This document shows positions 46,703 through 51,251 of a DNA stretch of 64,000 bases, in pieces. Both the position numbers and the translations under genes were made by a program. The stretch comes from Thermoproteota archaeon (GTDB lineage: Archaea > Korarchaeota > Korarchaeia > Korarchaeales > Korarchaeaceae). Under the pieces are notes generated by a model. That model made no database searches. It worked only from the letters and a program-made list of their open reading frames with translations, and was not told where the DNA came from. The DNA lies in contig JAOZGP010000006.1 in the NCBI GenBank assembly GCA_027491735.1, forward strand, positions 57,066 to 121,065, given 5' to 3'. Within the stretch, counting starts at the first letter, position 1. Every line of letters starts with the position of its first letter.

Positions 46703-47845
46703 CTAAACTGTGATGGTGTCTCTGGAACTTTCCGCTAGACCAAGATCGTCCGGGATAAGCCAGCCACTCTTCTTATCATATAACTCAGGATCAATATATT
46801 GGACGTAGATATGCTCTCTATCGACATGATGAAAGGAAAAGCTGCTGACAACTCCTTCTGAGCAGAGTTTCGACATCAATTCTAAAAATTTCTGTACATC
46901 CATACAGTGAAACTCGATTAATGCTAATACGCTATTCTTTCCAATTTGTTTTGATATACTATGGAGATAGGGAGTTTTAGATAGAGCGTAGGAGAAGCGC
47001 TCTGTAGTCTCAGTATCTGGAAAGTTAACTTTAACAAAGAAGATTTCAGATGCAGAAGGCGGATACCGTGGGAAGTATATGTAATAGCTTCTTATCAGCC
47101 GTTTTTTGATAACATGCTTATCAAAATGATATTTCAGTCCTGCTGGACTAATTCCTATCTTAGCTGCTATCTTAGACATCGAGAGCGCAGCATCTCTACT
47201 TAGTTCAGCCAATAACTTAAGATCTATTTTGTCCAAGCCTTTGTTGTCTTGCTTTTCAACGAGCTTAAGCCTTCCTTCATTCATTAAATCCTTAATTTTA
47301 TGTATATCAAATTTCCAAGGATTAAACTTTAAGCTCAGCTTAGAAAAATCAATCTGAGGCGTATAAGATTCACAGTATCTTTCAACAACATACGTACTGC
47401 TTGAATCTTCTCTTTGCAGAACTGCCTCAACGACTTCATCTAGTACATCCCGTTTCTCTGATGGAACTAGCATCTGGACGAACATATTGTAGATATTACC
47501 ATAAACCCTGTAAGTCTTAGCAGGAACTTTTAGGCCAGTGAAGATATCTTCTAGATGACTTATCTTTCTGTAATCTACCTTAATTCCCACAAAATTATTT
47601 GTCAGCCCTATCGACGTGATGGACGGCAAAGCCCTCACGACAATTTTAACATTCTCACGTAGTATTTTAAATCTGTAATATATTTTTTTAGAATTCTCTT
47701 TCAACATACGAGATATTGTAAAGAGGTTTCCTGGACCGTACTTATAGATTAAGGAGAGCAATCTCACATTCAGGGGATCGAGAAGCTTTTCTACTTTTTT
47801 ATAGTATTCTATAACCTCAACTGGTAGTTCGATATAACAGCTCAT
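46703..47845 (-). CDS. Large HTH transcriptional regulator (Lrp/AsnC-like helix-turn-helix)
   Basis: DKIDLKLLAELSRDAALSMSKIAAKIGISPAGLKYHFDKHVIKKRLI, plus an N-terminal winged-helix-like region. Confidence 0.75.
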   Translation of the reverse strand: MSCYIELPVEVIEYYKKVEKLLDPLNVRLLSLIYKYGPGNLFTISRMLKENSKKIYYRFKILRENVKIVVRALPSITSIGLTNNFVGIKVDYRKISHLEDIFTGLKVPAKTYRVYGNIYNMFVQMLVPSEKRDVLDEVVEAVLQREDSSSTYVVERYCESYTPQIDFSKLSLKFNPWKFDIHKIKDLMNEGRLKLVEKQDNKGLDKIDLKLLAELSRDAALSMSKIAAKIGISPAGLKYHFDKHVIKKRLIRSYYIYFPRYPPSASEIFFVKVNFPDTETTERFSYALSKTPYLHSISKQIGKNSVLALIEFHCMDVQKFLELMSKLCSEGVVSSFSFHHVDREHIYVQYIDPELYDKKSGWLIPDDLGLAESSRDTITV

Positions 47846-47947
47846 TGATAGCCCTCCAGGTTCTAGGTTTACGCCTTCACTAATGATGCTTTTTAATTTT
47901 TTCCAAAAATGTACTAAACATTCAAGGAAAAATTTAAAAGCTCAATC

Positions 47948-47965
47948 CTCCCAAAATTTTGGGAG
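47948..47965. promoter_or_regulatory. Perfect 18-bp palindrome CTCCCAAAATTTTGGGAG spanning the SD-like GGGAG of the peptide gene
   Basis: Read directly; sequence equals its own reverse complement; ATG at 47971 lies 5 nt downstream of GGGAG. Confidence 0.7.
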
Positions 47966-47970
47966 AAATC

Positions 47971-48153
47971 ATGAAGAAGATCCTGGTACTCCTGTCCGCC
48001 TGTATTGTAATCCTGTTATTGGCTGTTATTGTGCCGTCGCACTCCTCTGCTCCTGTCTTCAAGGAGAAAGCTCAGGACCCCGGACCAATAGGATCGCACT
48101 CCTCTGCTCCTGTCTTCAAGGAGAAAGCTCAGGACCCCGGACCAATAGGATGA
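47971..48153 (+). CDS. 60-aa signal-peptide-bearing peptide precursor with two identical 19-aa units (ORF track start 47959)
   Basis: MKKILVLLSACIVILLLAVIVP followed by (SHSSAPVFKEKAQDPGPIG)x2 and stop; good SD spacing. Confidence 0.6.
   Translation: MKKILVLLSACIVILLLAVIVPSHSSAPVFKEKAQDPGPIGSHSSAPVFKEKAQDPGPIG
48037..48150 (+). repeat. Perfect 57-bp direct tandem duplication, two copies
   Basis: 48037-48093 and 48094-48150 are identical. Confidence 0.97.
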
Positions 48154-48198
48154 ATAATGCTTTAGATCACATGTTAACGTATTGAGGAGGTGTCTCGT

Positions 48199-48339
48199 AT
48201 GGATGACAACAAGAAGGGGCATGAGAAGAAGAAATCCAGGGACCCAACGCCTTTCAAGCTTCCAAGGGAGGTTCTCCAGCTCTACTACAAATTCGCTATG
48301 ACGGAGGGCATAAGGCTTCAGGAATGTCCAGACTTATAG
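48199..48339 (+). CDS. Small 46-aa ORF downstream of the peptide gene
   Basis: MDDNKKGHEKKKSRDPTPFKLPREVLQLYYKFAMTEGIRLQECPDL*; preceded by GAGGAGGTG. Confidence 0.5.
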   Translation: MDDNKKGHEKKKSRDPTPFKLPREVLQLYYKFAMTEGIRLQECPDL

Positions 48340-48548
48340 ATTATTTTTTACTTTTTATATTATTTTATATTACATTAGATCATCCTTGCCTCCAGAAAAC
48401 CTTTCATGAGGTTTAGTGCATCCACTCCTATCAATTCGTGATATCCTCCCTCGAGGACAAAAAAGGTGCTCCTGTCTAGATAACCTATGATCCTTCCTAT
48501 TCTCTTATAGCTTCTGGAGGTGAGCCCCAGCGAGGCAAGATCCCCTTT

Positions 48549-48830
48549 GTGAGCATTAATTTCTGGGTCGGCGCCCTAACAGCCCTAGTTGCCTGGGCGG
48601 TAGGGGCTGAGGCAGGCATCGAACCCGTGACGACCGTCTTCACCGCTATGGCTTCAGCCGTTTTCTCCGCCGCGTTCATGGTTCCCGCAACCACCTGGTT
48701 AGCATTCACGGCCTTCAGGAAGGGCTTAGATCCTGACAACCTGGTCGCTCCGATAGCGACACTCTTCGGCGACATGGTCACAGTCCCGACAATCATAGCT
48801 ATCTCATATATCCCAGGATATGTTGGGTCA
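48549..48830 (+). pseudogene. Fragment of an MgtE/SLC41-like cation transporter membrane domain, antiparallel to the deacetylase
   Basis: INFWVGALTALVAWAVGAEAGIEPVTTVFTAMASAVFSAAFMVPATTWLAFTAFRKGLDPDNLVAPIATLFGDMVTVPTIIAIS. Confidence 0.6.
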
Positions 48831-48851
48831 TATATCCCAGGATATGTTGGG
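48804..48851. repeat. Perfect 24-bp tandem duplication TCATATATCCCAGGATATGTTGGG
   Basis: 48804-48827 and 48828-48851 are identical. Confidence 0.97.
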
Positions 48852-49123
48852 GTTTCCGGATCCCATTCCCTTCCCTCGGCCAAAGCCTTCAGGTACTCCT
48901 TGGCGTGAACCTCCTTTAGAAGATCCTCCGGAGCAGGATCCGGATTCACAAATTCGAATCCAGCAGATCTCAAGGATTCAATGATCCTGATGACCCTCAG
49001 AGGGTTTTCTATGTGATTTCTTCCGTACTCGAGGCATCTCTCGGAGAACACAACTTTCACACAGATCCCCATAGAACCTCCCAAGTCTTTATCTATAACT
49101 GTGCTCAAGTCCTCATGATAACC

Positions 49124-50678: not shown

Positions 50679-51251
50679 ATGGACGCGCTGGAAGCAATTC
50701 TCAGGAGAAGGAGCATAAGAAGATATCAAGATCGTCCGGTAGAGGAGGAGAAGATCGGGAGAATACTTCTCGCAGCAGTCCATGCCCCATCGGCTGGAGA
50801 TGTGAGATGCTGGAGGTTCATCGTGGTCAGGAATCGAGACAAGAAGGAGGCGATCTACAGGGCAGCGCTTAGACAGCCCCAGGTGCTTCAGGCTCCAGTT
50901 CTGGTGGTCGTGGCCGCTGATCTCGAGGCCATACGCAGGGCTTACGGGAGAAGAGGAGTGAATCTCTACTCCATACAGGATGCCGCAGCTGCTACAGAGA
51001 ACATGCTTATAGCTGCCACATCTCTCGGATTGGGAACCTGCTGGATAGGTGCCTTCAGCGAGGGTGAGGTCAGCAAGATCGTGGGCCTTCCTCCCCAGGT
51101 GAGGCCTTTGGCCATTGTCACGATAGGTTATCCAGCTGAGACCCCCACGAAGAAGGTGGTTAGGCCGGAGGATCACTGCTTCTCTGAGGTCTACGGTCGG
51201 AGGTACGAATTCTCTCAACGAGCTTCTTCACGCACTCATCAGCATTCCTGA
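50679..51251 (+). CDS. Nitroreductase-family flavoprotein
   Basis: ILRRRSIRRYQDRPVEEEKIGRILLAAVHAPSAGDVRCWRFIVV, GLGTCWIGAFSEGEVSKIVGLP. Confidence 0.93.
   Translation: MDALEAILRRRSIRRYQDRPVEEEKIGRILLAAVHAPSAGDVRCWRFIVVRNRDKKEAIYRAALRQPQVLQAPVLVVVAADLEAIRRAYGRRGVNLYSIQDAAAATENMLIAATSLGLGTCWIGAFSEGEVSKIVGLPPQVRPLAIVTIGYPAETPTKKVVRPEDHCFSEVYGRRYEFSQRASSRTHQHS

Follow-up and report, generated by a model that had tools for sequence, protein, structure and literature searches.

The window (the whole stretch of DNA analyzed, 64,000 nucleotides) comes from a genome of the genus Ca. Methanodesulfokora (Korarchaeota). One locus in it combines a large regulator gene, a divergent small peptide gene and a second small open reading frame:

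46703-47845, minus strand: regulator, 380 aa, the proposed receptor; tandem double Lrp/AsnC-like protein (HTH, ferredoxin-like/RAM-like, HTH, RAM-like)
47897-47931, no strand: dyad TTTTTCC-N21-GGAAAAA in the divergent intergenic region, a candidate operator; significance untested, no binding data
47948-47965, no strand: perfect 18-bp palindrome CTCCCAAAATTTTGGGAG, overlapping the likely Shine-Dalgarno sequence (GGGAG) of the peptide gene
47971-48153, plus strand: propeptide gene, 60 aa; hydrophobic leader, then two identical 19-aa units; three-unit orthologues at loci L015 and L016
48037-48093, plus strand: cargo unit 1, SHSSAPVFKEKAQDPGPIG, from tandem-repeat detection
48094-48150, plus strand: cargo unit 2, identical to unit 1, from tandem-repeat detection
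48199-48339, plus strand: small ORF2, 46 aa, no leader, conserved C-terminus Q-x-CPDL; Korarchaeota only, 12 columns invariant with relatives

The peptide gene and its repeat

We confirmed the preliminary description of this locus, namely that 47971-48153 encodes a hydrophobic leader (MKKILVLLSACIVILLLAVIVP) followed by two identical 19-aa units, and that the gene is divergent from a large HTH regulator and followed by a 46-aa open reading frame. The units are identical in DNA as well as in protein (period 57 bp, 2.0 copies, 100% match, score 230) and are the top-scoring tandem repeat of the whole window. The propeptide's self-repeat scored above 200 of 200 shuffles of the peptide body. In the source genome the peptide gene is found once, and a single regulator reaches E ≤ 1e-10. 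ORF2 also occurs once (E 1.9e-24), and no second copy was found with the same three-sequence profile.

The draft genome is irregular 0.5 kb downstream of the array, where a gene is interrupted and 24 bp are exactly duplicated. The minus strand here (48390-49080) carries a histone-deacetylase-family gene that is broken into an N-terminal part (~48800-49069) and a C-terminal part (~48390-48545), with a plus-strand MgtE fragment (PF01769, 1.8e-07) between them; the exact 24-bp tandem repeat (48804-48851) lies within the broken gene. This is either a misassembly or a genuine insertion. Because of this odd spot, the exact number of cargo copies in the source genome is less certain at the level of reads, and our check of the repeat for assembly artefact rests on the relatives. 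Elsewhere in the window, a tandem array at 545-697 (64-bp period, unit beginning CTTTCAATCCTC) looks like a short CRISPR array.

The triplet is conserved in the genus

We found orthologues of the regulator (38-40% identity) in two genomes of the same genus, the KUA_Bin04 genome of Ca. Methanodesulfokora and Ca. M. washburnensis MDKW (G001 and G002). The divergent triplet of regulator, leader-repeat peptide and small ORF ending in CPDL was kept in both of these relatives. ORF2 ends in QECPDL in the window and in QRCPDL in both relatives. The peptide gene has a three-unit array in each: one consists of KLVDPAPLSTSVG three times, and the other of KIVDPGPLSTSAAPVG twice plus KIVDPGPLSTSTG. Thus, the source genome and its two relatives have 2, 3 and 3 copies of the cargo. 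The cargo units are similar within a gene and different between species. Common to all three is a D-P-(G/A)-P core by an S-x-S stretch, circularly permuted.

These comparisons bear on whether the repeat means anything at all. It might have arisen by slippage, or by a duplication during assembly, within a gene that is decaying and has no function, and the DNA-exact repeat and the suspicious 24-bp duplication in a broken gene on the same contig would suit that idea. However, the orthologous arrays in the two other genomes have three units and another sequence, so the repeat is neither chance nor private slippage. In addition, the regulator and ORF2 neighbors are conserved, and the tails of the wider family (below) are under purifying selection. 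Slippage is already disfavored, and we find it hardly credible.

Dyads were seen in the intergenic region of two of the three Methanodesulfokora loci (no significance test); the one in L015, at the equivalent place, is TTTCCCT-N17-AGGGAAA, its significance likewise untested. The 18-bp palindrome CTCCCAAAATTTTGGGAG was not seen in the two same-genus relatives. It could be an operator or a translational hairpin. A nitroreductase-like gene that lies 2.3 kb downstream of ORF2 in the window (50679-51251) directly adjoins the regulator in both relatives, and it is possibly part of the locus.

The gene order in both relatives is regulator, peptide, ORF2 and then a gene for a SPASM-domain protein. The SPASM-domain genes, with conserved TK and endonuclease III neighbors, are:

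L017, 1951-3246
L018, 2005-3306
source genome, G000:C28, 34191-35519

It is possible that the Methanodesulfokora locus is a RiPP cluster, in which the precursor is ORF2 or the repeat peptide and is processed by the SPASM-domain protein encoded after ORF2 in the two relatives. The domain (TIGR04085) was recognized in both (5e-10 in G002, 2.5e-9 in G001), the gene order is shared, and an N-terminus looks, on visual inspection alone, like a PqqD-type recognition element. In contrast, there was no Pfam PqqD match, and a PqqD family search of the genome gave nothing over the cut-off. In the source genome the SPASM gene sits on a different contig, with its usual TK and endonuclease III neighbors and no peptide gene, and the protein lacks the CxxxCxxC radical-SAM motif; both facts weaken the case. 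No SPASM gene was noted at the Bathyarchaeia loci described below. The AlphaFold model of the SPASM protein was poor (pLDDT 42). We give the RiPP explanation little credence.

The regulator is a tandem double Lrp/AsnC-like protein

Pfam recognized HTH_24 (1.3e-08) and HTH_AsnC (PF13404, 5.2e-08, over the cut-off) in the regulator. The RAM region had no Pfam match, yet fold and profile matches to Lrp/FFRP structures span it, and in a PDB profile search each half of the regulator matched Lrp/FFRP chains. An AlphaFold model from a 68-sequence alignment (pLDDT 92.6, pTM 0.90) has an HTH, a ferredoxin-like domain, an HTH and a second ferredoxin-like domain. With this model Foldseek returned first NirDL (4ch7, TM 0.59/0.71) and then many Lrp/AsnC chains. 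Pfam found no TPR, and the model is HTH-RAM-HTH-RAM.

None of the invariant or nearly invariant columns in the 68 family sequences is a histidine (the active site was not aligned by residue). Since no histidine is nearly invariant, we read the regulator as a DNA-binding protein, not an enzyme. Its relatives are 345-439 aa long. Viral contigs searched with the regulator profile gave no match.

Related regulators in other archaea adjoin leader-peptide genes

Direct searches for homologues of the peptide gave nothing but noise away from the locus, and the wider family was traced through the regulator. In the named genome collection, Bathyarchaeota and Thermoprotei had regulators at 25-26% identity. 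Three Bathyarchaeota regulators had a leader ORF of 66-68 aa located 50-70 bp upstream on the same strand, with the tails GGGGDPVPGPGVPK, GGGGDPVPGPGIPK and GGDDVPGPGWPGPG. The paralogues in Thermoprotei B14_G17 have leader peptides of their own: two are encoded divergently, like that of the window, and one precedes its regulator on the same strand. More generally, distant regulators (20-26% identity; Bathyarchaeia and another Thermoproteota class) were preceded by an ORF of 28-119 aa, most of 58-81 aa, encoding a hydrophobic leader and a G/P/D-rich tail, e.g., GDPIDDP, GDPVPGGGIPK or GDEGGG.

The regulator profile matched in 84 of 257 Bathyarchaeia genomes. On inspection, nearly all Bathyarchaeia regulators above 300 bits adjoin a peptide gene, with tails such as GDPIDDPICPG, GDPVDDPFPPGMAW, GDPVPGGGIPK, GDERGGGWP and GDEGGGSRPGKT. 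The other Thermoproteota class carries the pair at L040, L043, L046, L152 and L166 (tails GETPIDDPL in L166 and SGGPALPAYDEG in L152), and so do Korarchaeota of another family (L121). The last survey added 28-aa peptides ending in TDDPVP and PIEDEDTF, and 83-91-aa peptides with FDPPGW(G/D)PGFP tails. When archaeal genomes were searched domain-wide with the profile, matches beyond these groups were weak, reaching no more than ~144 bits. Of these genomes, we credited only the korarchaeon G024 with a peptide partner, which carries GPGSGGG twice.

Repeated tails are present in at least eight loci (L001, L015, L016, L074, L091, L094, L121 and L081); in L081, which was partly masked, PNGDEIGGGWPT occurs two times in succession. 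Genomes with several pairs have differing tails (G117, G127, G130 and G064). The preliminary description asked whether copy number varies while the regulator stays adjacent, and this is what we observed: 2, 3 and 3 copies in the genus and 1-2 elsewhere, in Korarchaeota, Bathyarchaeia and another Thermoproteota class.

Most mid-scoring homologues (150-300 bits, e.g., L095-L112) had no adjacent peptide, even allowing for mis-called starts, and they serve as an internal negative group. A ligand peptide therefore cannot be inferred from the fold of the regulator by itself. Tail-to-tail pairs of N-terminally extended homologues (397-439 aa) were seen in Bathyarchaeia (L097, L099, L100, L101, L103 and L104); no convincing leader peptide was seen adjoining these pairs. 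All carriers with named records are uncultured, mostly known from draft genomes, and all of our evidence is comparative.

Association with the regulator and constraint on the cargo

We scored the association with strict automatic criteria: an ORF of 35-100 aa with a strong hydrophobic leader, on the same strand and 5-120 bp upstream. Such an ORF preceded 35 of 54 regulators of at least 300 bits compared to 1 of 199 other genes of the same loci (Fisher 6e-28), and 1 of 38 of the remotest Lrp-like regulators. Five loci missed by the filter were added by hand (L031, L065, L052, L069 and L081), and L067 looks frameshifted. A leader-peptide gene with a conserved, sometimes repeated C-terminal cargo stays beside a double Lrp/AsnC-like gene in several archaeal classes.

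In their parts the peptides resemble the small propeptides of the RRNPP systems discussed below. All but one of the 54 are shorter than 100 aa, and 51 of the 54 leaders have a positive n-region. An AxA-like motif follows the core in 44 of 54, by a crude heuristic and without signal-peptide prediction. A Shine-Dalgarno motif precedes 27 of 51 peptide starts, which lends the gene calls some support, although the start codons are uncertain.

Across related pairs of peptides the tail was the most conserved part (dN 0.14, compared to 0.35 for the middle and 0.28 for the leader). Pooled dN/dS was 0.32 for the tail, 0.67 for the middle and 0.38 for the leader. Distances between regulators correlated with distances between tails (Mantel rho 0.43, p 0.001); the values were 0.14 for the leader and 0.18 for the middle. 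The cargo is the most constrained part of the peptide and diverges in step with the regulator. Shared ancestry is expected to account for part of the tail-regulator correlation, but not for the lead of the tail. As far as substitution patterns can tell, these are the marks of a precursor with a cargo that matters and a linker that does not.

The leader could be a membrane anchor instead of an export signal. The peptide would then be a small protein kept in the membrane by its N-terminal helix, acting in cis on the regulator or reporting the state of the membrane or of export, with the outer tail as a sensing or docking element and no released pheromone. Each peptide does have a single strong hydrophobic helix, and all but one lack a second membrane segment; no signal-peptidase prediction stands behind cleavage, and the regulator is soluble by sequence. 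However, repeated identical cargo and a fast-evolving, free middle better fit a cleaved precursor, as does, with the weight of a crude heuristic, the AxA-like motif past the core. We regard a membrane-held protein as unlikely.

The variation of the cargo between species would also suit a secreted antimicrobial or toxin (an archaeocin) controlled by the neighboring regulator, and from general knowledge bacteriocin loci share this layout of a small secreted peptide by a regulator. In contrast, the tails are G/P/D-rich and acidic, not cationic or amphipathic, and identical short cargo in multiple copies is, again from general knowledge, unusual among bacteriocins. No recurring immunity gene or dedicated transporter gene was seen at the loci inspected, which was not done systematically. 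An archaeocin seems improbable to us.

Proposed function

The recurrence of the regulator-peptide pairing in scores of archaea suggests that archaea have their own form of the pheromone signaling by peptides known in Gram-positive bacteria. We think it probable that the locus in the window is a propeptide-receptor signaling pair, with export, processing, uptake and binding all inferred; there are no data on transcription, secretion, processing, import or binding. On balance we also favor the broader inference that it belongs to an undescribed family of archaeal peptide pheromones whose cytosolic receptor is of a double Lrp/AsnC type and has no TPRs. Such a family would have evolved independently of RRNPP, would extend over Korarchaeota, Bathyarchaeia and other Thermoproteota, and in Methanodesulfokora would have precursors with multiple copies of the cargo. 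The idea of a secreted-peptide system with an adjoining regulator, proposed in the preliminary description, thus gains support from the conserved adjacency, and its signaling role is still inference without evidence from transcripts, peptides or phenotypes. Neither of two observations that would have refuted it by computation was made: homologues do adjoin the regulator in relatives, and recent slippage is disfavored.

In such a system, the leader would direct export of the propeptide via Sec. Signal peptidase and other proteases would free the cargo. In the window this would be SHSSAPVFKEKAQDPGPIG or a shorter piece of it around DPGP, and in most relatives the last ~8-14 residues. The short peptide may re-enter through an oligopeptide ABC importer. 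Oligopeptide-binding proteins (PF00496) are encoded in eight of nine carrier genomes tested, with three in the source genome, indicating that a route back into the cell exists. Once inside, the peptide would bind the regulator's ligand-binding domain and alter its binding to the intergenic dyad and other promoters. To our knowledge, the ligands of RAM domains in characterized Lrp proteins are amino acids and not oligopeptides. Multiple copies of cargo per precursor could increase the yield of peptide, as in the repeated Phr propeptides. The readout might be cell density, export capacity or kin identity; we cannot decide among these.

Secreted-peptide signaling is textbook knowledge for Gram-positive bacteria. 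Our literature search, which did not extend to subscription papers and preprints, found no archaeal counterpart. A 2013 review describes archaeal quorum sensing via AHL-type signals (PMC4187201). A conserved pair in widespread uncultured lineages supplies defined peptides and regulators, and makes peptide communication in archaea a question for binding assays. In addition, it becomes possible to test across domains whether propeptide-receptor pairs evolved convergently, down to the duplication of cargo and the coexistence of several specificities in one genome.

Comparison with known systems

We know of no member of the Lrp/AsnC (feast/famine) family reported to respond to a secreted peptide. 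Each half of the archaeal regulator has the HTH and RAM-like fold of these regulators, but the protein has two HTH-RAM units per chain and a partner peptide gene. The tandem Lrp-like fold is shared with the sirohaem decarboxylase NirDL/AhbA-AhbB (4ch7, the best Foldseek match); however, identity is 12% and the archaeal family has no histidine in invariant or nearly invariant columns. Unlike a radical-SAM RiPP cluster, the locus in the source genome has no adjacent CxxxCxxC maturase.

The closest parallels are with the RRNPP(A) systems of Bacillota (Rap-Phr, PlcR-PapR, NprR, Rgg-SHP and AimR). RRNPP systems are recognized by a small propeptide, Sec export, a receptor of 250-500 aa, TPRs and gene adjacency (PMC10075063). 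The archaeal pairs share the direct adjacency, the size of the receptor (380 aa here) and the small propeptide (10-100 aa; 60 here) with a basic n-region, hydrophobic core and C-terminal cargo. Sec export may be shared too, but this is inferred only from the crude heuristic, without signal-peptide prediction. In contrast, the archaeal receptor, a tandem Lrp/AsnC-like protein, has no TPRs; it fails this criterion, and we do not count the system as an RRNPP member. The cargo is G/P/D-rich, the hosts are Archaea and not Bacillota, and the gene layout is different: in Bathyarchaeia the peptide gene precedes the regulator and shares its strand, and in Methanodesulfokora the two genes are divergent.

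Duplication of cargo within a gene is a further likeness (PMC11343458), as are several paralogous pairs per genome with differing cargo. The propeptides Phr105 and Phr3T contain identical or near-identical copies of pheromone, and every one of these copies is processed and has activity (PMC11343458). Their sequences are unrelated to those of the archaeal arrays, which have up to three copies of 13-19 aa and no spacer. We found no homology between the archaeal system and RRNPP. The best reading is that the module is RRNPP-like in its working and not homologous to RRNPP.
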